Assembly: GCF_032362555.1 (NCBI RefSeq)
Contig: NC_083525.1
Span: 2,651,501 to 2,715,500, forward strand
DNA: 64,000 nt
Direction: 5' to 3'
From: Amyelois transitella
Taxonomy: Eukaryota; Arthropoda; Insecta; Lepidoptera; Pyralidae
Program-made: the position numbers and the translations under genes
The notes under the pieces: generated by a model
What the model saw: the letters and a program-made list of their open reading frames with translations, nothing else
The model's database searches: none
Told to the model about the DNA's origin: nothing
Shown here: positions 127 to 51,486 of the stretch, one piece after another
Numbering within the stretch: position 1 is the first letter of the stretch
How the letters are laid out: every line of letters starts with the position of its first letter

Positions 127-3100
127 CGGTCAAAGAATTCGATAAAACTGAATTAGAAGCTTTGGCCAAAGTGTTCTGTAAGGCTCGCGAACTTCCTCTA
201 ACGGTAGGGAGTGTGGCTTCTAACGTGGGCTATACCGAAGCTGCGTCTGGATTATGTGGGATTGTGAAGGTAAAGTTACCACTTAACAGCTTAAGTTCAT
301 TAATTTTCATTAATTAAAACTTCCTTAGCTTTGCTTCGTCCTCACCAAATACTTCCCTTCTTACTGAAAATTCTGAGTCCTCCTTTATTCGATGTTCCCT
401 ACTGTTCTTTTCTCTTTGCCGATTATAATGAAATTGTGAAAATGTGAAAATTTAAATTTTCTATTTTATTACCTAAATTCGATTAAGACTTGGTAGTACT
501 ATTCATATTACAGATGTTAATCGCATACCAAAGAGGAGAAGTACCACCTAATTTAGACTGTGACAACCCAAGGGAAGACGTGCTAGCTATCCAACAAGGG
601 TTGATGCAGATAGCTAGCAAAAAGATGCCTTTTCAAAGATCCTTCTCGGCTGTTAACGGTTTCTCCTTGTTTGGACTGAACGGCCATGCTTTGCTGAAAG
701 GACATTACAAACCGAAGGTAAGGTATAATAATCGCTGCATGTTAATTTTTATTTATGTCTATTTTCCCCTTTGGTTTTGTTTTTGCAGCAACACACTCTT
801 AATTCATTTTTATAATATTTTTTTAATTTCAACAAAAAACGTAGCGAGTTATTAAATACTATTCCCAATAGCAACTGATATCATGCTGTGCAAACATGTA
901 TCAAGATTTTTATGAACGAATACACTAGCAGTTAGTACTTTTATTTATTAGTCGCCACCAACTCCTCCAACTCCAAGAGATGGTCGATCTTGTTCTATGC
1001 TGCAATATTTCTCTTTATAGAGATGAGTTTCCATTGGCAGGCATTAATAAAATTAAATTTTTGTATTTTAGAAATCTCAGCACAGCAACACAGACCTACC
1101 ATACTTGTTGTTGGTATCTGGACGCCAAGATTCTGGGGTTCAAAAAATACTGGAAGATGTGGGCTCTCGTCCCATTGATCCAGAAGAAATAGGATTACTG
1201 CATAACGTTTTTAAATCGCGCGTATCAAAACACATGTCTAGAGGTTATGGAATTTATGGTAAGTTTCTTGAGTTTAAAGTAACAGTTGCATATTTTTCGA
1301 TTTTAAGTGTACCTACTACGATCAAGGAGTGAGTGAGCAAGCCAGATATTTACACGAAGTGACTACCGTCTCATTTTTATCCTATCCTAATATTCTGTGT
1401 CAGTTATTTTTCTTATTCATCCTGTTCATGGAACTACATGTTTTGCGTCGTTTATTTAAAGGATCTAACAATTTAGTTCTTGTAATAATTATTTTTTTAC
1501 CAATTATGTTCTCTTATCTGTATCTTCTGTTTGTTTTTCTTTCAGCAGCGAAACAGGACAAAACAAAAGTGCTTCGAGAAAGCAAAGACTACTACGACCA
1601 GAAGGTCAGACCGCTGTGGTTCGTTTACAGCGGGATGGGCTCGCAGTGGGCGGGCATGGGGGTGCATCTGATGAGAATACCGACCTTTGCTAATGCTATT
1701 TATCGGTAAGTATAAGAATATTTTAATTTATATAATTATTTTTAATTTGTTTTACAGATAGTAAAGTAGATGGAAACTAGCATTTCCTTGAGTCTCTCAA
1801 CCCGTGCACTCGTTCACGTGGTAATTGGCAATTAAAATCATCTCATATATCCCTACACTCCCAAATAAATTTACCAGCTGGTACATAAGAAGCAGCCAAG
1901 CTGAGCAGTCCCGTCTGCAATATTAAATATATCTTTTTGCTTCTAGTACAAGAATATAGGAGAAATATTTAATTGATAAATTGAATAAAAAACATCGTTC
2001 TTACATATACCCTTATATACTTCTCTGTTATTTTAAGCTGCCACAAAGTGTTAGAGCCGAAAGGCTTGGACCTCATCAACATCATTACGAGCCCTGACGA
2101 GAAGACCTTCGACTACATACTCCACGCTTTTGTGGGAATAGCTGCGATCCAAATAGGTCTCACTGACATCTTGAATCAAGTGGGGCTAGTCCCGGATAAT
2201 ATTATTGGTATGTTACGCTGCTGAAGAAGCCTTTTACCATACTTGAGACCTTGCCAGGTCTTTTATGGGTACGGAAAACCCTCGAGGATCAATTTTGTGG
2301 TGTTGAATAGAGTCGAAGGATTACTTTGTGTAATAGAACACAAAGTTACCCTTCGCCTCTTCGAATAATGTGGCGAAACCTCATCTTCCGGGACAAAAAA
2401 CCTACTTCATCCTGACGATTGTTCCATTTACATCTAAGTATACTAATATTATAAAGCTGAAGAGTTTGTTTGTTTGAACGCGCTAATCTCAGGAACTACT
2501 GGTTCGAATTGAAAAATTATTTTTGAGTTGAATAGACCATTTATCGAGAAAGGCTTTAGGCTATAATATAACATCACGGAGCAACTATTAGGAGCGAAGA
2601 AATAATGGAAAATGTGAAAAAAAAAACGGGGGAAATTATTCATCCTTGAGTGCTTCAATGATGCCCAAAATAACTTTTCCACGCGGACGAAGTCGCGGGC
2701 ACAGCTAGTCATCTAGAAATAGGCCTGAGGAATGACTCGATCCAGGAGTGGGAAATTGCGAGTTGAGACGGGAATCTGATTTTCATATCCCTGTAAACCT
2801 AACCCAACATCAGAAAATGGCCTATCAGTCTTTTTAAGACTCTTGAAAATGCCTACCCCGCGAGGTATATAGACGTGATTATATGTATGTATACCTAACT
2901 CAGCTTAAGTCACTTTTCTTGTTTTGGTTAGTGCTTTTGTCATAATGGACTATTTTAATGTCGGTAAACACGACAATTAGTTGAGAAAACCCCTATTATG
3001 TACTGTTTCAGGCCATAGTGTCGGAGAGCTGGGTTGTGCGTATGCGGACGGTTCTTTCACTGCTGAAGAGATGATTCTGATGTCGTATTACCGTGGACTC

Positions 3101-6100
3101 GTGTCGGTCGAAACTGAATTCATTGTGGGATCAATGGCGGCCGTTGGCATGGGTTATAAAAAGGTAACTAACTTAGAACTCGCATGTCAACATCAACTAT
3201 TGAAATCAATATGTTGATTCTTCCCGGCACATCCGTGTGGTTCCCGGCGGTGGTACAAAAAAGAATAGGACCACTCCATCTCTTTCCCATGAATGTCGTA
3301 AAAGGCGACTAAGGGATAGGCTTATAAACTTGGGATTCTTTTTTGGGCGATGGGCTAGCAACCTATTTGAATCTTAATTCCATCATTAAGCCAAATAGCT
3401 GAACGTGGCCATTCAGTCTCTTCAAGACTGGCTTTGTCTACCCCGCAAGGGATATAGACGTGACCATATGTATGTATGTTGATTCTTGCAGTTTGCAGAA
3501 AGTTATCAGAGTCACTTCCAAACGTATTATAACAACTTGCGAATTATGTAAAGAAAAGAACGATTAACAAAATAAATACATATATATTGGATGCTATTTA
3601 TACAAGACACTAACTTAAAAAATAATCGAATGAAAAATTGTGAAATGAAACAAAAAACTATCAAACAAAAACGCAACGAAATTTAGAGAAGACTCCGCGA
3701 TTTCAAATTGCCGGGCGCTCGGTCTTCCATTAAGAGACAGGACCAACTCAGCAGAAACTTAAATACGATATAATTTACAAATAATAAAAATCTTTAAATA
3801 TTAATTATTATACAAATTTTTAATTTAACCTTATACCCGCTACAATATCAAAAACCAGTTCGAAATGTTTCTGTAAGGATTCTCAAAACTATTACTAGTG
3901 GATGGTTGTCAATATGGAAATTAAATATGTAAAGAATTATCTTACTTTTTTACAGATATCGACAATATGTCCACCAGAGATCGACGTCGCTTGCCGTAAT
4001 GGTCCCAACTCGTGTACTATTTCAGGACCAAAGGACATTGTGTCAGGTTTCGTGAAGACCCTTGAAGACCAAGGGATCTTCGCTAAAGAAGTCAAATGCT
4101 CCAACATTGCGTTTCATTCACGATATATAGCTAAAGCTGGTAAGTGAAGACTATTTTACATACATACATACATACAATCACGCCTCTTTCTCGTCGTAAA
4201 AGGCTACTAAGGGATGGGCTTATAAACTTGGGATTCTTCTTTTAGGCGATGGGCTAGCAACCTGTCACTATTTGAATCTCTATTCTATCTTTAAGCAAAA
4301 TAGCTGAAAGTGGCCTATCAGTCTTTTCAAGACTGTTGGCTCTGTCTACCCCGCAAGGAATATAGACGTGATTATATGTATATATGTATGTTAGACTATA
4401 TGCTAAGGCCAGTTTATCTCTGGGATATAGCGAGGCTGTAGTCGTATCTCTATTGCCATATTGAGATGCATTTTCTGCTACGAGTATTTCTACCTTATCA
4501 TAATTTAAACATCAGATGAATGTTACTTAGGACTTAGAGATCATTTTGTATTACTTATATTTTTAGGTCCTAAACTGTTGCAATACATGAAGGGAGTCGT
4601 GAAAACGCCAAAACTGCGAAGCGACCGTTGGATTTCAGCTTCTGTACCGCAAAACAAGTGGAACGAACCCGCTGCTACCTACTCCTCTGCCGAATACCAC
4701 ACCAACAATTTGTTGGTAAGATTAGAAATACTATTGTCACACATATTAATAGCCATGATTCAATATGGGTTATATTCCCAGGAAATGGACAGTTATATTC
4801 CTAGGACTCTCAGAGTCCCCCGTCCCTCCACATTTTCAATGTTACCTTACATAGGATTTAAACCTGGGACCTTTGATTTGTGTGATAATGACAACGTCAC
4901 TTATCATTAAAGCCCTCAATTTCAAATTAACTTTCTACAGAACCCAGTTCTCTTTGAAGACGTACTCCGCTTTATACCTACTGACGCCGTGCTGGTGGAA
5001 ATAGCTCCCTATGGATTACTTCAGGCTATTCTGAAGAGGTCCCTATCGCCTGATTGCCAACATATAGTTCTGACTAAACGGGACGATGATAATGCTGTAA
5101 ATGTGCTGGCAGCTTTAGGAAAGTGAGTAATATCTGAGAAGTATTTTATTAAGTTTTATCAAAAAGAAGTGTGAGAGTCTGATAGACTTTGTTTTGATAA
5201 CCTTTATCGTCTTGAAGAAAAATGTTACTCTCGTAATTAGGGACTCGTTTATATTTTTAATTAGTTACTATTTTCAAATCAGATTGAATTGTTTTCTATA
5301 GTACCTACTGTGGAAACACTGTCCACAAATAAAAATATTGATTCAAAAAAGGAAAAATATGTAGCGCCAAAAAAACAAGTCATTATCTAGAGCAAGCTAA
5401 GATATTTTTACATTACCTACTCCTATTTTATTATTTTGCATAGAATTTATAACAAGTTTACACTATACAATTATAAACTATACAAGTTCAACTTTTATAT
5501 GTTCTTCAGTTTTCCAAAATAGTATGTATTGTGTAACATTCACATTGAACTTGTAATAATAATTAGTATATGGAATAATGACGCTGCTTGTTTTGTTAGC
5601 TTTCGCCCACGTGAAAAGTACGCTATATCCGGCGCCGTACACACTATGTACCTATATCCAAAATTTCATGGATACCTGTTCAGTGGTTTTGACATGGAGA
5701 TACAAATAAACGCACACTTCACAATTATAACATAATTTTTTAATTTCCAGATTATACATGGCCGGCTATGATGTGGATCCTAGCAGTTTATATCCAAAAG
5801 TAGAGTTTCCAGTGGCGACCGAAACGCGGCCGTTGTCACATCTAGTAGAACTGGTTCATGATGTAGCTTGGTGAGACTTTTTTTCATCTATATCTCTCTT
5901 TATAAGCTAAGTGGATACATAGCCTTATGTAACACATTTTAATTGACTAAATAATTACTTATACGTATTATTAAGCTGACCCCACGCCCCGAAGCTTGGT
6001 GGCGGAGGTTGCAACTGGATAGACGCCAAGGTGAGAGAGAGACTTTAATGGACTATATAGGTGTAATTACATAGCCTAATATTAATTGTTCTAATATATT

Positions 6101-9100
6101 TACAGCCTTTTTTTTATCCTTTCCAATGTTTAATAGTTAATATTTGTAGATTTTCGCACCTTATACCAACAAGATTAGTAGCTAGTATCGTAATGATAGA
6201 CGGAGGCTAAGAAAATGCCATGAAAAATGTATAAAAATAAAATGGCAAGATTACTTTGCTGGTTTAAATAATACTAACATAGCTAATACGATTTATTTCA
6301 GGCCATTTACCGTATACAAAACTCCACATAGAACGCACAATGCTGTTTACAGACAAGTAATCACCGTCTACGATGATGACTATTCATTCTTAGCTGGACA
6401 CTTAATTGAAGGTTAAACTTTCTTCCTCATCTTTACGTTAACTTGTTTTTGTTCTTAGCTGTTATGCTTCAGAACCGACAAGTTAATTTTAACTTAACAA
6501 CGTCTCTGCATTGGAAAACAGATAAGTATCTAAACGTTATTTCTGCCTCTGATAACATAAACGTATTTGCAAATCTGATTACAAAGTATTAATTACCAAT
6601 TTGACTTTAATATTTTCCTTTAAATTTATTTAGATCTCATAAACGATGACTTTTAGTGAATAACATACATACATATAGTCACGTCTATATCCCTTGCGGG
6701 GTAGACAGAGCCAACAATCTTGAAAATACTGAATGGCCACGTTCAGCTATTTGGCTTAATGATAGAATTGAGATTCAAATAGTGACAGGTTGCTAGCCCA
6801 TCGCCTAAAGAAGAATCCCAAGTTTGTAAGCCTATCCCTTAGTCGCCTTTTACGACATCCATAGGAAAAAGATGGAGTGGTCCTATTCTTTTTTTGTATT
6901 GGTGCCGGGAACCACACGGCACTGCCGGGAATCACACACAAATGTGGCACAGTGTGAATAACACATAAATTATTATTACTTTTACTTTTCAATTCTTGAT
7001 TACAGGCAAAAACGTGTACCCGTTCGCGGCGGCCCTGATCTCCGTCTGGGACACGCTAGCTATGACGATCAACTCGAGGCGTGGGGAAGTATCCGTGACC
7101 TTCCATGATGTGATGCTGTATCTCCAGCCGGTCTTGCGGAAAGACAGGCCTTTGCACGTCACTGTCACTATACAGAGAGGCTGCGGCCGTTTTGAGGTGA
7201 GTTAATAAATCTTTGAACTTGTTAAGAGTAAGATTTACTACTACAAGATAGTGACTATATTAATGTTAAGAGTTGGATAAGAGATACAAGATTGTACTCT
7301 AATGGACTCATACTATAAGAGAGATGAGAGATAATTTAAAGATCCATAGAATTACTACAACCTTTATTAGCGGACTTGTTTGAAATTATTTTAAAGGGCG
7401 TGGGTTAAGCTGTAGAGACGAAATCCAGAAAGTAGCCGCCAGAGGCTAGCGAGCTACTAAACTTGGTGAACTCCATAGTTGTCCAAAGGCGAAGGCCCGG
7501 AATGCGCGGCTCTGATATGGTGCTTCCGGGCTGTGAAGATGGGCTCACGGGAGACCGTAGTGGCACCACTCACAAGCTGAAGAACTGGATTTTTTCAACA
7601 TTTCTTACGCATGTAAATAGTCTGCCAGAAATACCAGGCGGTCCAAAACCTATATACGTCTTACATCCTTTAAAAGTACGCTCAAATATACCAACAAGAG
7701 CTACCCAATTAGCAAAATCTGGTACTTTAATTTAATCTAAGAACATGCTAAATCTGAAACCGAAAAAGATGTAGCCATTTTGATACGTCAAAAAGAACAA
7801 CATGGTTAAATAATCGAAACAATTTTAACTTTTAAGGTAACATGTGATGAAGGCATGATAGCCGATGGTATAATAACCCCACTAGCAGTGCCATTCACGG
7901 CTAGTGACATAATGATCCAACACCAACAAGGTCCCTACGAGTTGGTCTCTGAAGATGTTTATAACTTGTTTTATGAAAGAGGGCATGAGTACAGGTAATA
8001 TAATGTAGGCTGCTAACTTTTTATGAATAATTTATCTGTAGATTTTACATAATTTATGTATGTAGGTACTATATATAACATTATCTACTAAATAATGGAA
8101 TTCGTGTAGTTGTTCTAATTTCTTAATCTCCTTATTTGTTCTTTTCACTAGTTTATTTGCTTATGAATCTTAATTTGTGATATTCTAAAATGTATGCTTT
8201 TTTCAGTGGTCAGTTCCAAGTTATCTTCAAGGCTAATTTACAGCTAACTCATGCTCAAGTGAAATGGAATAATAATTGGGTCACTTTACTTGATGCTATT
8301 ATACAAATGCAAATTTTAAGAAGTACATCCAATGGTATTTCCCAATTAGATTGCATAAAACGCATCGCTATAGACTTCAAAAAGCATGTTCGAGAATCTC
8401 TTAATTGCGATAATTTACTTGATGCTACTTTTGATGAGCTTAGACAAACTACGAAGTTAGTATTACATCATATCATTTGACTTAAATTAGGTTTTTATGT
8501 TTGCGATTACATAATTATTATTTTTTAAAGATGCGGCGGTGTAGCCATGGAAAGTATCAGATTAAAAGACCAATCATCACCAATTGTACAATCAGTTTCT
8601 TTGAAGACATTGAAATTTATACCCTTCATACAACACGGAGATTATGATGTAAGATCATGTATTTTATAAAATTCTTGACATATTTATTCATAGTCGACTT
8701 GAAATTTACAATTGCACACGTAGGTAATTAATTCTTGATTTCATATAAAATGCTACTCCTCTTTTAGGTAAATACCATGATGTACGTATACACACAAATA
8801 ATCGCTGAAAATTTGTACAAAAATAAAATAACTGTATACTGTGTTAATAGTGAGTACTGTGCTCTGGAAAATGTTAAAGAACTATTGAAGACACCTCCAT
8901 TTATCGAAATGGAAATAATTTATATTACTAAAGAGGAATTTTTTGGACCTAAAAAGATTAGTAGAGTACCCGACGTTGTATTTATGGATGATCTTTTGAA
9001 CAAGGCTGTGAGTATCTAGTTCGTTTCATTTTACGTTTAAACTAAACGGATGATAGTCAAAATTATTCTTATTTTTCAGACATTCGAAGCTCTTTTTCAC

Positions 9101-12100
9101 ACCTTACCAAGAAACACATATATTTTAAGCCAAGGTATAGACACAAAAGGATTATATCCTACCACCTTATACCGTGTCATTTGCTGTTCTGAAAAAGGCA
9201 ACACCAAAATTGAACTAGCTCGATGGAGACCTAAAGAAACCGCGAAAACTACTACAGTTATAACTATAAAATCGTCGTCGGATATGAAAAATCTTCAGAC
9301 AGTACATAATAATTTGAGCAGAAACCAAAAGCTACTGATTCTGACCACATATCCAGCACCGAAAGAACTGAAGGCTCTAGTTAACAAATGGAAGGATGAT
9401 ATCAACATATCTGTAGCCATGTTGCCCGATAATCATAAAGATCATGATTTGAAACCTATATCAAACTTGGACTTTGTTTTCAACGTTTTACACGAAGTAT
9501 GTATCCTTATTGTTCTGCATAATTATGTTGTAATGTACCTATGTATTTTAATTGGAATAAAACTTCTTATTTTTTTTCTTCTTTTAGGGTACCTGGGGTG
9601 GTGAATATTACATACCGGTAAAATCAACATGCGCTGAGATCGATAACGTAGCTCTAAAAATAATGCATCCGGGAGACTTTAACTCACTGACTTGGGTGCA
9701 AGCCTCAAATGATTCTAACCAAAATATACCAGTGACGGTAATATTTTTTTATAGTTAGCTAGACTCAATTTCCTTCAATATATAAATCGAGTATTCTATT
9801 TTCTGACTGTTTTTGCCTTACTTGTGGAGATCATGAAATTATATCGGGTACATTACAAATCTCAGCAGTGAGCAATCGACTGAAGAAAAATAAATGCGTG
9901 GAATATATCTTAGCAGATATTCAGTAACTTTGTCTAGGCTTTAAATTAGTTTCGTCTTTAATTATTCAATTTATGACTCAACTTAGTCTATTTGACAGGT
10001 ACACTATGCTGGTTTGAATGTTACCGACGTTTACCGAACTCAAAGTTCGCCTAAAATTGAAAAAGGCTTTGGAATGGACTTCAGTGGATTAACAGAGAGG
10101 TGAGCATTCATTTAACCATTCATACTCTCATCCTGATTACTTCATCATAACGAATTACCAGCTAGATTTTCAGCACTTTGCTTCATAGCTCAAGCAAGAA
10201 CTGTCAGTTTTTAAACTGTGAACTAAAAAGTATATTCACATGTCAAAGCAGTTCAATCCTTAATTACTGCATGGTTTCCGGCACTCAGATTGGATTGGTT
10301 GGACATAGGATATTTTATTCTACGGGAAGTTTTAAATATTCAATTCTTATAGGGGAGAACGCGTCATGGGACTAATAGAATGTGGCTCAGCTCGCAACAA
10401 AGTGAGTGCTGATCCAAGGTTACTATGGCCGGTACCTGAGCAGTGGAGTTTAGAAGACGCTGCTACTGTTCCTCTGGCGTATGCTCATGCATTTTACTGC
10501 TTGGTAAGTGAATAAATAATTTTAAGACAGAGGGGGAATTATGCATTCGTCTTTTGCAACTATCTGTTTATACTTTATGTTGTACGTTGTATTATACGCA
10601 TCAGGTTTATTATTCTGAAATATTGTATTGTACAACAATATTAATATTGTATTGTATTATATTTTTTGATTTCTTTGTTTGTTTAATTTTTATTTGATAG
10701 CTCTCTTTATTTTGAGATAAACCAACATAACCACCTTAAAAAATATTAAAGGGTTGTTTTGGTTGATGATAAAAAATATTATTAACGCGACTTACTTGGT
10801 CATAATTATCCTTTAAACTTTTAGAAATAGCTTTAAAATAACCCAGACTAGACTCTAGGCTGGGCTGATAATATTGTTCTAATACCTACTCTTATATTGG
10901 TGGTATGTGTTTTGTGGTGTGACACATCTTGTCTAATCCTAGGTTCTCCAAACACAAGTATTTATACTTAAATGGAGATCCCATTCTAAACGAGATACTG
11001 TAAAGAAGTTAAAATAAATAAACTTTTCATTTCATTTCATTTTCACATATAAAGAAACATTTAAAAACAGGTGATCAGAGGAAAGTTATGTCCCGGTGTG
11101 AGCGTGCTGATTCACGGAGGCGCCGGAGCCCTGGGCCAGGCGGCCATATCTATAGCTCTGGCTTACGGCTGTCTCGTATTCACCACCGTCTCCGATGTGA
11201 AGAAGAAGCACTTTTTGAGGAAACTCTTCCCGGAACTCAAAGGTAACACGGAAAACACCGCATGAATTTAAACAAAAGTGGTTCTTTGAACATTTTATTA
11301 CAATTTGTGGGGTATAGTAGATGGTGCGAAAGTTCTAGATGAAATAGCAAATTTGCTATCGCTCTTTTATGTCATTTCAGAGGAAAATATTGGGAATTCC
11401 CGTGACGAAACATTTGGAGATATGATCATAACTAACACCAAGAATGAGGGCTGCGATATCGTGATCAGTTGTGTACGAGGAAATCTCAAAAATGTATGTT
11501 ACAATGTTACAATTCTTCTATCTTTAAACGATAACGAGACTTACTCTTCTAGATTATAGGGCTGCATCATCATTAGTAGTAATTTCATTCTCACTTTTGT
11601 TCCGTTCCGAACTTTATTGAGCTTTGATAATATATTATTGACATCTACGTTTGTTCATCTTTACAATATAACAAATCCGTACTAATAATTATAAATGCGA
11701 AATATCAGTTATCTAATAAAACAATCTTCTTGAAATTTCGCGTATTTATAATAAAGAGAAGGACATAAGGACCTTTTGTTCTAGTAAAAACTATAGTTCC
11801 CGTGAAATTAGCGAAATACCTGTTTTCTGCTGTTAATGGCGCTTTAAATCGAGGGGGCCAAGCCGCGGCGCAAAAGCTTGAAGGTCATATTCATCATAAT
11901 TATGTAGATGTTAACTAAACAATCACTAACTTGCCTACTACTTGGAATATTTTAGACAACACTGAAATGCGTGGCATCTGGAGGAGTCGCCATCGACACA
12001 GTGCAACTATCGAGTCCAGAAAACTGTAACTACGGCCTCTTCCACATGTTCAGAAACAGGTCGTTCATGCTCGTCGACTTCTCTTCTATCTTCAAGAATG

Positions 12101-15100
12101 AAAATATTGAAGACATTATGGTAATCACCTCCTTGTTTCAAGTTCTTTTCGTTTTTAAAGTTACATTTTTTGATTTCTTTGTTTAATTTTTATTTGATTT
12201 ATTTTGTTTTCTCTTTATTTTGAGATCAACCAACATTACCACCAACCAACCTATAAAAAATATTAAGGAGTTGTTTTGGTTGATGATAAAAAATATGATT
12301 ATCGCGACATATCATCAAAATTTAATGAGCCAGTCGCACTAGATTATATAACTATTTTATTACATTTCTGAAATTCTTTCTTTTCTATCTTTTTATTTAT
12401 CTTCAGAGACTACGCCACCTCATCAGCGAAGGGATCGCTCTGGGGCATGTTCGTCCACTCTCACGAGTAACATATGCACCAACTGAAGTAGCGAGGGCTT
12501 TCAAATTACTCGCAGCGAGCAGGCATAGAGGTCGAGTACTGTTGAACTTACAGGATCTACATGCTTTGCCTAGAATTGAGCCAAGGTTAGTTGGTTATTC
12601 ATTGAAATCTGAATAATAACCATATTATTGATCTTTACGTTTCTTTACTTTATCTAGAGTTGGACTCGAATGATATAAAATTGTGTTTTCGATAACATCA
12701 CTTGTCTAGTATAGTATATCTATAGTTCAATACTTATCTAGAATTAATGACTTCATAATAAAAAGACTATCTGGCGCTATATATAAATACTATATGAAAA
12801 ATATCGGCCGTTAAATACTTTTTTTAACTTTAACATTTCGTGGAACATAAATTCGCTGTAACGGCAACCTCAAATTTCCAGTAGGTACCTACATGTCAAA
12901 AACATACTAACAATACTTATATTTTCTATTCAGGATAACCTGTTCGCCAGATTTCTGTCAACTAATAGTGTCTGAAAGGGAGGACTTCGCGATACAACTA
13001 GCCGATCGTCTGATAGCTCGTGGTGCGAAGAAGATTCATCTCCACCACATCAGACCAACCTCTTACTTGAAATACAAGCAACTGTAAGTTGTTTTGTTAT
13101 ATGTCTCAATTTTCCACTGGATTATACAGGGTGACATTTAAAACAACTGCATCCTTTTAAACATAGACTATACCCATGCTTCTGAGCTGTTTGAGTCTAT
13201 TTTTTTTTAAATTAAATATTACCGATATTTTTCTTTTAACGTTTTTAAATATCTTTTAGATGAGTACACTTAACAGTTAAATTTATGCAGTTGAATTAAA
13301 AGTCACCTTATATATTTATGGATGTCGTAAAAAGCGACTAAAGGAAAGACTAATAAAGTTGTAGGCGATGCGCAAGTAACCTGCCACTATTTGAAACTCA
13401 ATTTCATCATGAAACCATACAGCTGAACGTGGCCTTTTAAACTTTTCAAGACTGTTGGCTTTGTCAGTTGGCACATGTCTTTCTTTCTTATTTCAGTTTG
13501 TGGCAAAACCAAGGCGTGAAAGTTGAGGTGACCAAGTTTGAACTTAATACAAAAAGTCAAGTCGAATCGATGCTCAAGAAGAGCAGTCTTCTTGGAAGTA
13601 TTGAGGGTATTTTCGTCATGAATTGTGGAGCTCCGGAATATTTGAAGACTAATAGATCGATGCTGGTGAATTTGGATTTAGAATCGAGGAGGATGTGTCC
13701 AAATTTAAGGTACGAAGAATGGGACGTTAAAGTTTAATTTTGAAGGACTGAGGTATATTCTTATACCAGCTATGTGTACAAGAAATCTGGGAGCAAAGAG
13801 TCTCCCTAAAATTTTTTCTAAGAAGTTATCAATTATTTATTTATCCCACCAGATTTTACCTACTTGCCGGTAGCCTATTCGCTTTTAGGAAGATTCTAGA
13901 GTAAGGTGATTTCGATTTGAAACTCTGCAACTTCTAATGCTGATCCTGATAAATAGTTCCATATCTTTTCTTGAAATATTAATTATAATTATCTTAGACT
14001 ATTAAACATAGTTGAGTGGCACAGTAACCCGAAAAAGCCTGTCCACTTAACAAAAACATTAATTATTTTTTACAGAAACTTTATTATAATAAGTGACAAT
14101 GACAGAGAACGAGATGTAGTCGAAAATAGGTCTCAAGGTGGTCTACCAGTGTTACTATTACTTCTGCAGGATTTGAAACAGGTATCTACTAGCGCACTAC
14201 TCGTACTACTAGATATATTTATTTATTTATACATAAAACAGGATAACTTTTTTAAAAAGGGAACCGCCTCAAATCTATATACCCCGCTTTTGAAATTTGT
14301 TAAAGTTCCAAAATCTTCTCCTAAGTGTAACAAACACTTTCCTGACAACCGCATCAAAATCGGTTCAGCGAAACGCGAGATAATCGCCAGCTGTTTTGTT
14401 TGAAGACGGTTAAAAACTGAAAAAATGTAGCCTTATTTATATGGAGATCGTCAGCACGCCTTAAAGTAGCAAAGGACACTAAACAGATTTTGTAGCAAGT
14501 CGAATTCGGCTCATGTCATCGAAAGAACGGTACCTAAGGTGGTGGTGGCATTATACAATACAAACTTTAAAAAAAAAAAAACAATATTTTAAGCTTGGAA
14601 CATTAGAATATCCGGAACAAGCAAACTCGTCTGTAGGTGTAGGAAGATGGCGTTTAGTCTTGGACGCAGTCGAGAAGGCAATGCAGAGTGGAGACTCCAT
14701 TGTTTTTGCGCATACGCAACCGTCGCCACCCTTGTCGCTGGTGGAGGAAATCGGTAAAATACTTGGTGAGTTTCTACTAAAACTAACAAACTTTTGTCTG
14801 GATTGTAATATTGTTCTGGGTAATTTATTTCCAAAGAAAATTTGAGAAATACTCTCTTACTTAGAATCCTTGGCATTTACCCATAACTAACAAATTTCAG
14901 TACTTTTCTCGACTGTAGTTGATCGATCATTTAGTTAGAAGTTATTATCTAACTAAGGTATATATATTCTAGGCCAACAGTTTACAACTAAATGAAATAA
15001 TTGAATTATTTCAGGGATTTCTGTAGATAGGAATGGTGTAAATGAACCTACACTAGAACAAATGGGTGTTGATGGCGGCAAGGTGAAGGAACTGTGCAAC

Positions 15101-18100
15101 ATGTTGAGAGATAAGTTTAACATCACTGTTTTTGAAGAAGACGTTCTTGGCATGACTATGACCGAGTAAGTGCCTGAATACATCTTCGTCAATCACGGGG
15201 TATAAAATACTTATAGTCTTGAAAAGACTTATCCACACGTCGTGTAACTAATGACATACTGAATGAAATACTACTCGTATAATGACTTAAGGGGTAAAGG
15301 TAATGATTAAGACTCCGACGATGGTGACAGTTGCTAACCCATTGACATTAAAAGAAGAATGCTGGTTTTATTATGCTTTTTCTTTGATTTATTAATGAAG
15401 TTTTTTTAATATAAAACGAATAGTCCGGTACTAATTTAAAAAGAATAGGGCCACTCCATCTCTTTTCCATGAATGTTGTAAAAGGCGACTAAGGGATAGG
15501 CTTATAAACTTGAGATTCTTCTTCATAGGCTGTCACTATTTTAATCTCAATTTTATCATAAGCCTTAACAGCTGGCTGCTAACGCCTATCAGTCTTTCAA
15601 GACGGCTGGCTTTGTCTACCCCGCAAGGGATATAGACGTGATTAATTGAATTAATGAATGAGTTTTTATTTATTATACAAAATATATTTTTACAGTCTAA
15701 AAAAACTCCAAAGGGAGTCCAAAGTGGCTGATCCAAAAAGTTCAGAAGGCTTCAGCGGATATTTGAACACGTTAGGAGAAGACGAGCTGATGTCAACTGC
15801 TGATATAATACAAATGCGCACTCTTATCTATCCTAATGGCACTGTGAGTTTCATATTTTACCATATACACCTGGAAAGGAAAATATACAACAAATTGACA
15901 GACGAACCTGCACACTTTATAACATACATACATACATACATACATAATACATAACACCACGCCTCTTTCTCGGAGGGGTAGACAGAGACTACCTCTTTCC
16001 ACTTGCCACGATCTGTACACACTTCCTTCGCTTCATCCACATTCATTACTCTCTTCATGCAAGCTTGGCGGTTTCGGGTAGGTACTCTTGACCTGACCCT
16101 TTACCAGGACGTCCTTAATTTGAAACAATTGTAAATGTATAACCATTAATCAATATGAGTTAGATTTACCAGCAAAGGTTTCGGAGGTCAGACAAGAGTG
16201 GTTTCGTGAAAAAAAACGTGAATTACCCAATCCAGGATCATGATCAAAGTAATCCAGAGAGGTGAAGATGTAAGCGGTTCTAACTTCTGTGCCAGAAATA
16301 GACCTTTTGACAGTATTTATATCCTACTAGCAAAGTTTTAACGATCGATGTTTGATGATCAATTAATCGAAATTTGATTGATTGATTGATACTCGTATGA
16401 ATTTTGGGTCATGGTAAATCGATCATCATCAATAAATCGATCGTTTAAAACTTTCCCAAATAATATTTAGTTACAAGCTATCAGAGTCTTGCAAGATATA
16501 TTTGTTTTAGCGATCAGATGAACTTAACAAGGATCTGGACTACGTTTGCGTGGTGCCAGGGTTGGAAGGTCACCATGGTCGCTTCGAGCTACTCTGTGAG
16601 AGACTGAAGTTACCTGCTGTAGTAATTCAGCCAGGAATCGACATTCGAGGAGAGAGGATTGAAGAATTGGCCAGACGATTTGTTGACGTAAGTGTCAATT
16701 TGCAAGAAAAACAATGTCCATTACAGATTAACTATAAAGTTAAATCAGTCAGGACTGTGAGGACTAAAAATATTTTTAAATATAAATAAATATATACGGG
16801 ACCAATTGCACTGATTGAGTTAGCCTTGAAGTAAGTTCGAGACTTGTGTTACGAGATACTTACTCAACGATACTATATTTTATAATAAATACTTATATAG
16901 ATAAACATCCAAGACCCAGGCGAATCAGAGAAAGTTCTTTTCTCATCATGCCCTGGCCGGGATCCAAACCCGAGACCTCCGGTGTCACAGACAAGTGTAC
17001 TACCGCTGCGGCCAGAGGCCGTCAACTTATCCGTACATAAAAATTAAACTTCGTTTGCTCCCGTTTCATAGGTCCGTTTGGTTGGCCAAAATTATCTGAA
17101 TTCATTTAATATTCATAGTGTACAGACTGCTCAGACGCAGTTCCGTACGGTAAGACGATACGTACAAAAAAAAATCTATCGTCCATCTGTTTAGGAGATT
17201 TCTGGGCTGTATTTTATTTAATAATCTAGTTACAAAAAAATGACACATATAGAACAAAGATCCCTGATAAAAGTCCAACTGAATCTGTTACAAAGTCTAG
17301 AATTATTTCACGACACCAGTAAATTAAACTGTTTCTCATCTAATAACTATATTTCTATTACAGATTATAAGAAAAAAGCTGGCAGTAAAAGACCACTACT
17401 ATCTTGTAGGCTACGAGTTCGGGGCAATAATAGTTCTGGAAATGGCGGCCATTTTGGAAAAGCTTGGTAAGTTATTTTTATTAAAATCAAATTACACCAC
17501 ACTAATAAGCAACAAAAATTGTATATGTATGTATGCTTTTGTTAATCAATACTGTCTCACTGATAGGCAAAAGACAAATGGATATATGTATATTTTTATT
17601 ATTTATTGAAACAAAAAATATACCTTTTAATGTTTACAGGCATCAAGAGTACAGTCTATCTCATCGGTGGGACTCCAAGTGACATTCAGAATTCTCTAGA
17701 ATCACGAATAACCCATATGGATTCGAACTGGGAGAACGCATTACTCAATCACATGTCTTCTCTTATAAAAGGCACCAAATGCAATATCGATAATCTACAA
17801 TACATCGAATCCTGGAATAAAAAGGTAGAAGCATGCATCAAAAAACTAAGGCCATTAGTAACATTATCTACGGAGTATTTAAAAAAACAATTGGATGCAA
17901 CGCGCGAAAGAATAATAATGCTTAGAAATTGGAATTTGAAAATCAAACCGTTGGATTCCAAAGTCATTGTTCTAAGAGCAATGTTGCCAACTGAAATATC
18001 AGCGAAGGAGTTAAAACTCCTTTCTAATATCGATGTCGAAGTTTTTGAGCTGTCTTCTGCTTTGACTGATGCTGCGCTGGACTTGAAATGTTCGGCAATT

Positions 18101-18211
18101 ATTAATAATAATTTGAGTCCACATATTTTGGAAGAGTATAGAATAAGAAATAAGTGTGAAACCAGCCTTTCAACAGAAGAAATACTTCAGGTGAAGGTGG
18201 TAGATATGTAA
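127..18211 (+). CDS. Fatty acid synthase-like protein, 3' part, catalytically degenerate
   Basis: Exons: 127-269, 514-717, 1072-1258, 1546-1705, 2038-2207, 3012-3163, 3956-4139, 4567-4715, 4941-5122, 5751-5870, 6302-6411, 7006-7196, 7837-7994, 8207-8455, 8531-8648, 8768-9007, 9080-9496, 9588-9737, 9999-10099, 10353-10503, 11071-11242, 11381-11493, 11956-12120, 12407-12585, 12934-13083, 13497-13709, 14076-14181, 14594-14765, 15015-15165, 15696-15843, 16511-16687, 17364-17466, 17640-18211. All have GT..AG borders and agreeing phases, giving about 1,984 residues; the 5' end is outside. Domain order is that of animal FAS: KS tail (127-717), MAT (1546-5122; GHSVGE serine, FHS histidine, YYRG arginine), DH (5751-8648; HLIEGKNVYP and LLDAIIQ), central core (8768-9496), ER (9588-12585; HGGAGALGQ), KR (12407-14181), ACP (14594-15843), TE (16511-18211). 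KS, KR, ACP and TE have lost key residues (see findings). Probably a cytosolic lipid-synthesis paralog rather than the housekeeping FAS; substrate unknown. Confidence 0.92.
2441..2709 (+). repeat. Family E dispersed repeat
   Basis: Runs from a TATTATAAAG-type start to the characteristic end GACGAAGTCGCGGGC..AGCTAGT, widespread in Lepidoptera as far as I recall. Shares that end with copies near 29.9 and 41.9 kb. Confidence 0.55.
2817..2893 (+). repeat. Family A retroposon, 3' fragment
   Basis: Ends with the family A terminal phrase (CTACCCCGCGAGGTATATAG) and a TATG tail, in a FAS-like intron. Confidence 0.6.
3223..3476 (+). mobile_element. Family A retroposon with target-site duplication
   Basis: Nearly full-length copy between direct repeats TGTTGATTCTT (3212-3222 and 3477-3487). 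The TATG tail is at the right. It lies in a FAS-like intron. Confidence 0.8.
4157..4390 (+). repeat. Chimeric repeat: antisense family B tail joined to sense family A
   Basis: 4157-4193 is the (CATA)n tail and 3' end of family B in reverse; from 4194 the sequence is family A in forward direction to a TATG tail. Confidence 0.65.
6666..6953 (-). mobile_element. Family A retroposon with target-site duplication and a longer 5' end
   Basis: Flanked by GTGAATAACA (6656-6665 and 6954-6963). Compared with other copies it has about 30 extra bp at its 5' end, partly duplicating the CCCGGCA phrase. Confidence 0.8.
10668..10792. repeat. Intronic repeat, copy 1
   Basis: Similar to 12168-12310 in another intron of the same gene; both share GATTTCTTTGTTT, CTTTATTTTGAGAT and GTTTTGGTTGATGATAAAAA blocks. 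Confidence 0.7.
12168..12310. repeat. Intronic repeat, copy 2
   Basis: Second copy of the segment at 10668-10792, with small insertions. Confidence 0.7.
13316..13466 (+). repeat. Family A fragment
   Basis: Degenerate internal family A sequence (GGATGTCGTAAAAAGCGACT to CAAGACTGTTGGCTTTGTC) without the tail. Confidence 0.6.
15438..15645 (+). repeat. Family A copy, 5' truncated
   Basis: Starts at the AAGAATAGGGCCACTCCATC phrase and reaches the terminal ATATAGACGTGATT, without a long TATG tail. Confidence 0.65.
15926..16110 (-). mobile_element. Family B non-LTR retrotransposon 3' end
   Basis: (CATA)n tail followed by the reverse of the family B end; on the - strand it reads [22 protein letters not shown], the degraded C-terminus of a retrotransposon ORF. 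Confidence 0.7.
16331..16455. repeat. Imperfect inverted repeat in a FAS-like intron
   Basis: Left arm AAAGTTTTAACGATCGATG pairs with right arm ending ATCGATCGTTTAAAACTTT, with ~45 bp between the arms. It may be a small MITE. Confidence 0.55.
16840..17020 (+). repeat. Family C SINE-like repeat with a tRNA-like segment
   Basis: Shares TTGTGTTACGAGATACTTACT, a TATTTTATAATAA block and a CATCATGCCCTGGCCGGGAT region with 53795-53965. The reverse complement of its right part contains a B-box-like GGTTTGGATCC. Confidence 0.55.
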
Positions 18212-46200: not shown

Positions 46201-47466
46201 TTCTGTTTAATGAGATAAATTTATTGATTCTGATAAAATCTGGAAATGAATTTTAAGGGTCTATATACCAATTCAATTTGCAACGAAAGAAAGAAAGTAA
46301 AAAAGTATTTAGTGTAACACAGGTGAAATTGTAATTAGAGGAACGGGAAACTAATGAAATTATAACAAGATAAAATGACAACTAACACGAACTTTTGACA
46401 ATGACATTGACAAATCACCCCATCAACTTTTTTAGGAATGAACGCAAAGCATGATCAAAATTCTGGTGGAAGCCATAATATAGAAAATAAAGAAAAGGCA
46501 TTCATTGTCATTTACTCAAATTCTACGGGAAGCATAATCCATAATAATAAAATTTTAATCGACCGATGTCTGTTAACACTCTTACAAACTTACCGTTTGA
46601 AGGTTTGTGTTAGGAGATATAGAACCCTAACAGAGTTGGATTGTAATCTGACCTAAAGACCTTAGAATGGACGTATTACGTAAACGAATTAATTCTTATA
46701 TTGAAGGGCAAACGAGACAATGATAAATCATCTACATAATATATCTACTACCTACTAGTAATAAAAAAAACAAACGGTTTAGTGTCGGATGTTTTTAAAT
46801 GCTAAAAGCGAAAATCGTCAAGATGTAGATTTCCCTATTTGCATGGCTATACCTATTCCCTGATACCTACCTATAATTTATGAGTTACAAGGCAAGAGTG
46901 AATAGGCATTATTGGTGCTTGAGTGATCATCGTGCAAATTAGGTACAACAAAAATCAATGGCAGCAAAAATTTAGATCAAAAAGCACTCAAATTTTAATC
47001 CAACATACATGTCATTTCTGTTTCCCATGGCCTTAAGTTCCACAGATACTATGAATTTAATTGGTGTATTCATATGAGAGTCTTTGGCTTTTCCTGTGCT
47101 CATTAATTTAAATTATTTACTTATCATCTTTTCTCCAAAACTGATTCCCATTCATCAATTTCACATAATATCCTGTGTCATACATACATAAAATCACGCC
47201 TCTTTCCCGGAGGGGTAGGCAGAGACTGCCTGTGTGATGATTACGAATTTGAAGATTTTTGGGTGAATGATGTTTACTTATTCATTTCGTTTCATTTTCT
47301 ATTGTTTCACGGTAACTTTATGCTAGGCGAACCTACTCATAGTTAATTTATGTAGGTAACTTGTACCTATAAAATCAATTCGGGAATAATTAACAGTCAT
47401 TTGTGCATTGTTTTGGGATTGAATAACAGTTTGTTTTAGCGGTGATCTAAATTTTGGAACAGAAAA
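46201..47466. promoter_or_regulatory. Divergent upstream region of MED21 and the FAS-core gene
   Basis: About 1.27 kb separates two head-to-head genes. It holds an ORF at 46438-46656 with no recognisable product and a family B fragment (47180-47230). The MED21 promoter must lie near 46,200-46,400 and the other gene's leader just before 47,467. No core elements identified with confidence. Confidence 0.35.
47180..47230 (-). repeat. Family B 3' fragment
   Basis: Short tail plus AAATCACGCCTCTTTCCCGG. Confidence 0.6.
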
Positions 47467-48967
47467 ATGGACATCAGTTCAAAGCCACAGTTTATACCAC
47501 AAATACAAGATGAAAACGTTGATGTGAGTAATAATATAGTCAGTAGCTAAACTTTAAACTGAGTATGACTAAACGGAGAGCTAACTAGGTAGTTAACTGT
47601 TACCTCAGTAACACATGCGAATCCGAATCTCCAAAGGCTCCGCAGGTATGATACCAACCTATCAAAATCTAAGCTTTGTCTTGCGAGTAGAGGTGTGCCA
47701 CAGGGTTCTATTTTTGAGCTGCTGTTGATTATAGACTTAACTAACACTATTGAGAGATTGTTAAATATTTAATTTAAATCCAACTTATTCTGTTCACAGA
47801 TCAAAACAGCACTTATAATATTTTCACAAATCGTATCCGAAAATGTTGGAACTAAGAAATTATCGATATATTACTTTAAGCAAGATGACGAATGCATCTT
47901 CGATGAAGTTAAAGAGTTACTCAAGAAGCTATCAATAGAATTGAGTATCACATTCGTGGGCCTAGAAGATTTTTTCAATGTTTCTTTAATGTTTGATCGG
48001 CCTCACATTATTTATTTGGATAACATTCTTGAGGATCCTGTTGTAAGTAGAATGTAATATTATTATAAGAACACCATTTACAGGAAGCTTTATCTGCAGC
48101 ACATAGGTATGGAAATAATCCAAGATGTAGCATATTCTGATTCAGATATTATAATTTGTAGAATTAACGTCGGATTTAGCTATGTACCTACACATAAAAT
48201 TTTGATTTTGTCTGATACCAGACATTTCTCAATTCTATTTTTTTTCAGAACAGAGATGCTGTGGTAAGCACAATCCCACCATCCTCTTTCATTATAAGTC
48301 GGGGAATAAAAGTGGAAGGATTCACTGATGACTACTATGTCCCTATGTATGTAGCCGGTAAAGGAAAAGATAGACTCGAAATGTCACAATGGAAGATCGT
48401 AGACATATGGAAACAAATATCTTTAAGAACGCATGTATCTTTGGTTCTAGTCAAATCGGTGGCTGATTTAGATGAAGTGCGCAAAGCTTTGAAAAATGCA
48501 ACGAAGTTCAAGAAAGTTATACTAATAGCAAAGTATCCGGATGTGTTCGGATTGAAAGAGATGGTTCAAGAGGTAGAAAGAGAAGAGATTAATTTGTTCG
48601 TGGTGTTTACTGATACTGAAGTAACCGAAGCGGAAGTTAAACAGAGGCTTAAGTTCAATATTCCGTTTAGCGTTTTGCATGATGTAAGTACATGACTGCC
48701 TAAGTTACCTAATCCCATTCTAATGATATCTATAACTAACCCTTATTGGACTATGGTTACACATTCAGGTTCCTGAATCTGCAAGATTCGATTTCGTTCG
48801 TTCGTTGCGAGAGCATCATATTTGCACATTACATATTTTTATTCGTCGAGCTTCGACGCCCTAGTGCATAGTAAAGCGCAAAAATAATGAATATTATTGA
48901 CTGTTAATTTACTTTATTTTAGGGAATTTGGGGTGGGGAATACTACGTGCCTGTGAAGAACGCTTGA
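47467..48967 (+). CDS. Stand-alone protein homologous to the central non-catalytic core of FAS
   Basis: Four exons (47467-47523, 47800-48042, 48249-48683, 48923-48967), all phase 0, encode 259 residues. An in-frame TGA lies 24 nt before the ATG, so the frame begins here. The whole protein aligns with exons 15-18 of the FAS-like gene: FIPQIQ with FIPFIQ, the block around VKELLK, SFIISRGI with [16 protein letters not shown]-like with [28 protein letters not shown] with [18 protein letters not shown]. It stops two residues after that last match. This region is the pseudo-methyltransferase/pseudo-ketoreductase structural core between DH and ER in animal FAS. No catalytic motif is visible. The three intron positions match those of the FAS-like gene, so it arose by DNA duplication, not from an mRNA. 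Confidence 0.87.
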
Positions 48968-49032
48968 ATATAAAATATACCTACGTAATAATACTTTTTT
49001 AGAAAAACATTTGTTAAATATCTTTGTGTCCA

Positions 49033-49038
49033 AATAAA
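49033..49038 (+). terminator. Poly(A) signal of the FAS-core gene
   Basis: AATAAA 65 nt after the stop codon. Confidence 0.6.
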
Positions 49039-51486
49039 AGAGGATGAGGAGAATATTAGTATGGTCTTTCATTTTAGACAATTCACGTTTCAGGAAATAA
49101 TGCTATGTGACGATTTTTATGCCAAGATTTCTTCAGCCTACTCTTTTACCTGAACCCGTCGGAGGTGACATAGTCATGCATTTTCGAACATGTGTTTAGT
49201 GTTTGGACTCAGAAAAAAAATTCGAACACACGTTTATCACATCTTTAGGTAAATGTACTTAATAACAAATCGAGATTAAGAGATAGTGACAGGTTACTAA
49301 TTTACCACCTAAAAGGAGAAATACAAGTTTAAAAGCCTTTCCCAATATTGACTTAAAATCTGCGCGGGAAGAGAAGCAGCAAATGTTTTTTTTTCTACAA
49401 GACGATCATGAAAGGTCATAGTATGTAATATGTATATTTTTACCTCAGTGAATTTAAGCCAACCGTTATTCCAATAATTAACTTCGATTTGAGAAAAGCC
49501 TTCGATGTGGTTGATCCAATTAAACACTCAACTGATAAGGGTTTTATTTTTTCTATTTTCAATAACACTTAAAAAAGAAAAAGTAATACGACGATAAAGT
49601 TAATAAATTAGTCTGAATATAGAACTAACACATTTGGAGCTCAACAAGGAACTCTGCTTGGACCTGTGTTATTTACACTACCTACACATAACGACCAAGC
49701 AATGTGTAAGTAATTAATAATATTTACGACCGCTGATAAGGCAATGTTTTAGGCTCATCTCCGCTCGCTGAAATATTAAAATCCCATGAACTAACATTCC
49801 CGCGGAAATTAATAAAAATAATAGGCCCTCATGGATTGATAAACATTTCAAGTAAATTTAACATACTTTTATTTTAGCATACAGTCATTAGACTTGACTA
49901 GAAGTAAAAATATCACAATTCATAACATCATTATGTGACTATTTACAATCAAAATTATACAGCAGATCTATATTATAAATTGCTCATGTAAAATAAAATG
50001 CAGTTATTTGATTAAAATAGCATTCAAAACTGATAAAATTTAAGGTAAGTACTTAAAATAGAGCTAGTTTAATGCCTATGACTAGAAAATTTTCAACATA
50101 GACAAAGATATTTACATTTTCGATGATATGTTAGTGGCTAGGTACAAAAATGCTTTAAAACAGACTTATTTATAACTAAATACAATAGGCAAGCAACACA
50201 CTTTGGTTTATTGTGGTATTTCAGACCGAAATATATAATAGTAAAGTTATTAAGAAGGAGAGAAAATAAGAATATGCCTATGTTCGTGAACAGACTCCTA
50301 GGTGTATGAAGATATACACAAAATATTTTGAAAAGACAAAAACTTAACATGGTGAGAACAATTATTATAACAAAGAATTCAACAATAAATATCACTGATT
50401 ATAAACGAAAAATAAACACTTATAAATAGAGTGTAGGTAGTTACTGAGTATTAATTGAGATCTAAGTAACAACAAAGACTTAAAATGTACAAATTTCACT
50501 TATTCCTACAAAAATCTTTATGCTGGGTAAATAAAGATGAACGTAGACTTGATTACGGCGCTGGAGCGCGCGTGGTCGGATGTCTTCTTCATTATAAATT
50601 AATTCGAAATAATGCAACCACTGCTACGCGGTTCAAAATATTAAACATCTGTGTTCGGTTTATGGACTTTTCTAGCACTAGAGCTGTGTCCTCCACAGCG
50701 GTACTACCCACTGAGGTAGCTTTGGTGAGCCAGTGCTAGATGATTTTGAACGAAGGATTTAGTCCGGAACTGTGGAGCGAAATCGGAACATACTCCCGGT
50801 ACGAAAACAAAGTGGCGGGGCAGAGGTCGTTTCGTATGACAGCCGGCTCCCAGTAACATCTCTGGGTAATGCACCACATTTTGAGACTTTGGTAGACCTT
50901 TATAAAATTTTTATAAACTAATACAAAAATGAAGCTCTATATTCACCCACATACAAGCACGTGCAATGCATGTGTAAACCTAGACATACTTATATAATAA
51001 AATATAAGTACACGAATAAAATTAAAGCTAAAATGAGGAACACAAGAAACAAGAGGCCAATATGACAACACATGAGGACTTATTTAACAGTCTTTTAGTG
51101 TGAAAGGTATCTTAATTATCTATAATAATTAATTATTGTGTCTGTTGTCCTATACTACAAAGTGAATCTAGTTTGGACCTTAGGTCAGAGGCCAGGTAAC
51201 ACTAACCATATTATGAAATAATACAATACATGATTTTTTAAACATTAGGGCCAAATTTGAAAAGATGTATTTTTTTTTAAATTAAATCACAGAAATTAGT
51301 GTTAACTGGCCTATTTGGCTCTTAAACTCCACAATAAATACTGCAAGCATTGGCTTTGAATACTATAATTGATGACTAGGCTGCAAGCAAAATGAAAATC
51401 ACAAACTGGGGTTTAAGAGCACACAAAAATATTACTCTTATAATGGTAAGGTACACTGTGTGAAGTAATTACGTCTTACACATAAC
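49039..51486. other. Intergenic region, includes the transporter 3' UTR
   Basis: AT-rich, no recognisable gene. Only short ORFs without family resemblance; the right part is presumably the 3' UTR of the - strand transporter. Confidence 0.4.

Follow-up and report, generated by a model that had tools for sequence, protein, structure and literature searches.

A 64,000-nucleotide window of the lepidopteran Amyelois transitella (RefSeq assembly GCF_032362555.1, contig NC_083525.1, positions 2,651,501 to 2,715,500 of the forward strand) carries a predicted gene, here named SA, that corresponds only to the central core of a fatty acid synthase (FAS). Animal FAS is the textbook single-chain megasynthase, and its middle has no active site. 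On balance, we regard SA as a real, old, and fast-evolving duplicate of part of a gene, kept as a noncatalytic core protein. The same window contains FASL1, a FAS-like gene lying 29.3 kb from SA, and the same contig contains a second such gene, FASL2. A retained gene made of the FAS middle alone, in a genome with two inactive-looking FAS-like genes, would be a natural test of the noncatalytic role of the core, and would mean that a scaffold domain can be split off to form a subunit. If unexpressed, SA would be an ordinary partial duplicate.

The four exons of SA, on the forward strand (Table 1), join into 780 nt encoding 259 amino acids with no internal stop, and its three introns are all GT-AG and all in phase 0. 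Two in-frame stops precede the ATG, so that this frame cannot be extended in the 5' direction unless splicing occurs inside exon 1. A candidate poly(A) signal follows the stop codon.

The alignment of SA with exons 15 to 18 of FASL1 had a BLOSUM62 score of 331, against a maximum of 68 in 1,000 shuffles, with 71 of 242 residues identical (29%). It starts within exon 15 and stops 13 codons into exon 18. All three SA introns fall between aligned residues of the FASL1 core, at matching positions and in phase 0, and the phase-0 intron before the G.WGG motif is common to SA, FASL1, and FASL2. The intron DNA of SA and FASL1 showed no similarity except for dispersed repeats and matches at chance level. 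Since tblastn with FASL1 as the query is insensitive at this divergence (it reported exon 4 of SA and missed exons 2 and 3), each of the 33 FASL1 exons was aligned by Smith-Waterman to the six frames of positions 46202 to 51480, with 40 shuffles per exon; our statement that no other FAS exon lies there rests on that alignment. Exons 16, 17, and 18 were recovered with z scores of 21.4, 25.1, and 8.3, respectively, and exon 15 had a collinear best placement (47488 to 47523) that by itself did not reach significance (z = −1.1). None of the remaining 29 exons exceeded a z score of 1.6 in this interval. Together with the upstream stops, this indicates that SA does not form part of a longer protein bearing catalytic FAS domains. 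We also considered exon 1 as part of a longer exon in another frame, and dropped this candidate because the homology to exon 15 is not significant and the ATG frame runs into stops upstream. Conservation in SA is highest in exon 4 (GIWGGEYYVPVKN), with 10 of 13 residues as in FASL1; in FAS, this segment leads the core into the ER (the domain order of animal FAS is outlined in the accessible part of PMC10258763). The original prediction had described a protein of this length with its own start, stop, and poly(A) signal, made of the DH-ER core only, strongly diverged but intact, and sharing intron positions and phases with the FAS-like gene 29 kb away. All of this is borne out at the sequence level.

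Database matches to SA itself were weak. The Pfam FAS_pseudo-KR model (PF21149) matched SA at 13.1 bits (E = 0.12), under the gathering cutoff of 27.4 bits, and a sequence search of SA alone against the PDB returned no FAS, only weak rows with E values of at least 0.42. No Pfam FAS model matched the FASL1 core alone. The best PDB row for a joint profile of SA and FASL1 was a septin (E = 0.0022), with no FAS among the rows, and we read it as a chance match. An alignment that includes SA (A3) was matched by hhalign to the two canonical cores of the genome with a probability of 98.9%, and this canonical pair finds the insect FAS 6fn6 at 1.1e−72. The predicted structure of SA, which is of low confidence, has insect FAS as its best fold match. 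Judging from the fold matches, exon 2 may be a remnant of the pseudo-methyltransferase (psiME) part, and exon 3 may hold the end of this remnant and the pseudo-ketoreductase.

We scanned the genome (327 Mb in 33 contigs, with the window on contig C21) and found, among the candidates scored, AT-bearing FAS genes at six places: FASL1, FASL2, FASL3 (C14), FAS_C21 (at 7.14 Mb), and a pair on C10. When six cores (SA, FASL1, FASL2, FASL3, FAS_C21, and FAS_C10) were placed in a tree, SA, FASL1, and FASL2 formed one group with support of 100/99, and FASL3 grouped with the canonical FASs. Within the former group, SA paired with FASL1 (92/95; 90/96 under LG+G4), which is probably its sister. Identity to SA over the aligned span of the six cores was 28% for FASL1, 23% for FASL2, 19% for FASL3, 18% for FAS_C21, and 13% for FAS_C10. 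The branch of SA, which makes up most of the path between SA and FASL1, was nearly five times that of FASL1 (1.66 versus 0.35), or about three times under LG+G4 (1.35 versus 0.48). Among the columns filled in all three sequences, SA is the only one to differ in 48, FASL1 in 20, and FASL2 in 35. No second SA-like copy was found in the genome with SA exon 3 (4 candidates scored), the FASL1 core (8 candidates), or the Pfam pseudo-KR model (4 candidates scored), and peptide-pattern scans of viral and bacterial/archaeal contigs revealed no relative.

At codon positions 1, 2, and 3, SA differed from FASL1 by 0.69, 0.52, and 0.94 of the random expectation, very close to the values for FASL1 versus FASL2 (0.70, 0.55, and 0.90). 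Third positions are close to random, but half of the conservation persists at second positions, which indicates that SA and FASL1 were under protein-level constraint for most of the history separating them. Synonymous divergence (dS) is saturated, so no estimate of it is given. Of 2,000 copies evolved neutrally, 5.9% had acquired no stop by 0.1 substitutions per site and 0.05% had acquired none by 0.3; when 1 indel per 10 substitutions was included, none of 2,000 was intact at 0.1 substitutions per site. The codon score of SA (0.110) was higher than those of all 147 noncoding stretches (maximum, −0.034), but it weighs little because FASL1 was its training sequence and a control gene reached only −0.006.

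These data suggest an origin by partial duplication. The donor would be a FAS-like gene with degenerate catalytic sites, in the likeliest case FASL1 or its direct ancestor. A DNA segment of this gene, running from the interior of exon 15 to the interior of exon 18, would have been copied with its introns and inserted between two genes that now flank SA on the opposite strand, MED21 (Pfam Med21, 97.3 bits) and an EamA transporter gene (92.0 bits). One breakpoint would have provided the copy with a start codon and the other with a stop, and its 259-residue product would have been retained as a noncatalytic FAS core (psiME remnant plus pseudo-ketoreductase). Both breakpoints seem to lie inside exons, which, with the introns at the parental places, argues for duplication at the DNA level and not for a retrocopy. 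Retrotransposition was rejected on account of these introns, despite the reverse-transcriptase-like stretches nearby. Because FASL2 has the same core introns as FASL1, the intron match alone cannot identify the parent; the tree favors FASL1 without settling the question. The earlier claim of a partial duplication of the neighboring gene is therefore supported as to a DNA-level event, but its argument from introns does not name FASL1 as the parent.

Some of the results weigh against SA being an old, retained copy of FASL1. In the AU test, the alternative grouping of FASL1 with FASL2 was not rejected (P = 0.07) and that of SA with FASL2 was barely rejected (P = 0.0498). The constraint tests may also be compatible with a gene that died recently or was recently cut down from a longer one; the age proposed in the original prediction is largely right. 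The fast evolution of SA points in the same unfavorable direction, as does the fact that neither the codon positions nor the branch lengths give a date for a truncation.

It is unlikely, but to be taken seriously, that SA is the last relic of a full-length pseudo-FAS paralog, with its constraint dating from the time when the protein was still long, and with the truncated remainder being young and functionless. Insect FAS paralogs often duplicate, and copies with missing domains or incomplete frames are described in the accessible part of PMC5039406. Yet 29 of the 33 FASL1 exons have no counterpart around SA, whereas the AT exons of FASL1 match those of FASL2 and FASL3 at 56 to 81% identity. 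The upstream stops and the poly(A) signal suit a separate gene, and under neutral decay the frame would probably break within about 0.1 substitutions per site. Alternatively, SA may have lost any FAS-related role and now persist as a novel small protein whose function has nothing to do with FAS. The low identity to its nearest core (only 28%) and the excess of SA-only differences fit this idea, which we nevertheless find improbable given the conserved last exon. The fast branch would also suit an old pseudogene left open by luck, but the neutral simulation and a codon-position profile like that of FASL1 versus FASL2 speak strongly against it, as do the GT-AG splice sites, making this very improbable. 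That the SA exons are part of a larger FAS transcript or of an annotation split by mistake is scarcely credible, since, although phase-0 introns would allow them to join other phase-0 exons, there are in-frame stops upstream, opposite-strand genes on both sides, no other FAS exon nearby, and a FASL1 whose own four core exons are all present.

Table 1. Position of SA, its proposed signals, and the related exons of FASL1 (coordinates in the window)
Feature	Position	Strand	Remarks
SA exon 1	47467-47523	+	ATG and 7 unaligned residues precede QFIPQIQDENVD, which aligns with the latter half of FASL1 exon 15
SA exon 2	47800-48042	+	Homologous to FASL1 exon 16
SA exon 3	48249-48683	+	Homologous to FASL1 exon 17; sub-threshold Pfam FAS_pseudo-KR
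SA exon 4	48923-48967	+	Homologous to FASL1 exon 18 (its first 13 codons); one extra codon, stop
Stops upstream in the SA ATG frame	47437-47445	+	TAG 47437-47439 and TGA 47443-47445; both within 30 nt 5' of the ATG
AATAAA, candidate poly(A) signal of SA	49033-49038	+	Starts 66 nt after the last base of the stop codon
FASL1, FAS-like gene	127-18211	+	33 exons in the window, more KS exons to its left; 1,984 aa open
FASL1 exon 15	8531-8648	+	SA alignment starts here
FASL1 exon 16	8768-9007	+	Counterpart of SA exon 2
FASL1 exon 17	9080-9496	+	Counterpart of SA exon 3
FASL1 exon 18	9588-9737	+	SA exon 4 matches its first 13 codons

Stretches that, from their motifs, resemble remnants of reverse transcriptase lie at 47600 to 47780 in intron 1 (RGVPQGSIFELLL) and at 49480 to 49720 on the 3' side of the gene (FDLRKAFDVVD and GAQQGTLLGPVLF). 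A dispersed repeat (cgcctctttcccggaggggtaggcagagac) at 47179 to 47231 ends 236 bases 5' of the ATG. It is 89% identical over 53 bases to a copy at 15943 to 15994 in a FASL1 intron, and weaker copies occur in other FASL1 introns.

The neighbor of SA, first described as FAS-like, is indeed a FAS homolog, but a degenerate one. FASL1 matched the Pfam AT model at 231.9 bits and passed one of two ER-type models, while the TE, KR, PP-binding, and DH N-terminal models were under their cutoffs. In alignments to human FASN, the KS histidine is replaced by tyrosine, the ACP serine by glycine, and the TE serine by glutamate, and the KR lacks GGxGGxG; the region of the KS nucleophile reads IDADSCSS. FASL2, at about 2568 to 2586 kb of contig C21 on the minus strand (about 66 kb to the left of the window), shows the same changes of the KS histidine and TE serine, lacks the ACP serine and KR motifs, and has no stop in 26 aligned pieces, which are pieces and not a full gene model. 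Both retain the AT motif GHSVGE. Their cores are 34% identical and their AT exons 59 to 81% identical. From the losses common to both genes and these identities, FASL1 and FASL2 are probably an old, retained pseudo-FAS clade, apparently inactive in catalysis and perhaps more interesting than SA itself. The KS histidine and TE serine are retained in FASL3, FAS_C21, and the single C10 gene examined, and the ACP serine in FAS_C10 and FAS_C21; a motif scan did not find the ACP serine of FASL3. Such scans miss motifs split by introns (one KR motif was missed in each canonical FAS too), so absences in them weigh little, and the losses of FASL1 rest on the FASN alignments and those of FASL2 on the piecewise alignment. 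FASL3 (C14, 8979001 to 8988500) is a divergent FAS-like gene with, by eye, an additional core intron. The canonical pair on C10 (at 11319310 and 11356732) lies about 37 kb apart with equal scores of its pseudo-KR matches, and is either a recent tandem duplication or an assembly duplicate.

Given the degeneracy of its neighbor, if SA acts in trans with a FAS, its partner must be either the pseudo-FAS clade or one of the canonical FASs encoded on C10 and C21. The pseudo-KR of animal FAS normally lies packed against the reductase domains, and the little-changed exon 4 suggests that the part of SA facing the ER and KR still matters. As a tentative possibility, SA would bind, brace, replace, or compete with the core that is built into FASL1, FASL2, or a canonical FAS, and so tune or scaffold the pseudo-FAS. 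More doubtful is the specific case of a dedicated core subunit, which would attach in trans to FASL1 or FASL2 or take the place of the core in a canonical FAS. If so, a megasynthase would have gained a regulatory subunit through duplication of its own scaffold.

Among known systems, SA is most directly comparable to the psiME/psiKR core of animal type I FAS (insect FAS 6fn6 and human FASN), to which it is linked by homology through FASL1, FASL2, and FASL3 and which is also the best fold match of its low-confidence model; it differs in being a separate gene without a catalytic domain. The accessible text of PMC5039406 describes a cluster III of aberrant insect FASs that keep KS and MAT, have lost the phosphopantetheine site, and have modified DH, KR, and TE; aberrant copies are reported to be expanded in Lepidoptera among other orders, and larval RNA interference of the beetle member TC000238 reportedly caused 100% mortality. 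FASL1 and FASL2 resemble this cluster in the retained AT motif, the lost ACP serine, and the degenerate KR and TE, and FASL1 fits it further with DH, KR, PP-binding, and TE below the Pfam cutoffs and with both the ACP and TE serines replaced. They differ from it, in a comparison by description only, in having a tyrosine for the KS histidine, where cluster III is described as having an unmodified KS. The same text mentions no core-only gene, and none was found in the open-licence literature, as judged from titles and the openings of abstracts. As an analogy, a C-terminal FASN fragment made by a caspase in Caenorhabditis elegans acts apart from fatty acid synthesis and needs KR activity, according to the accessible part of PMC10822777. 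As may be true of SA, it is a piece of FAS that acts outside fatty acid synthesis; unlike SA, which has its own gene and no catalytic domain, it is produced by proteolysis and lies C-terminal of the core.
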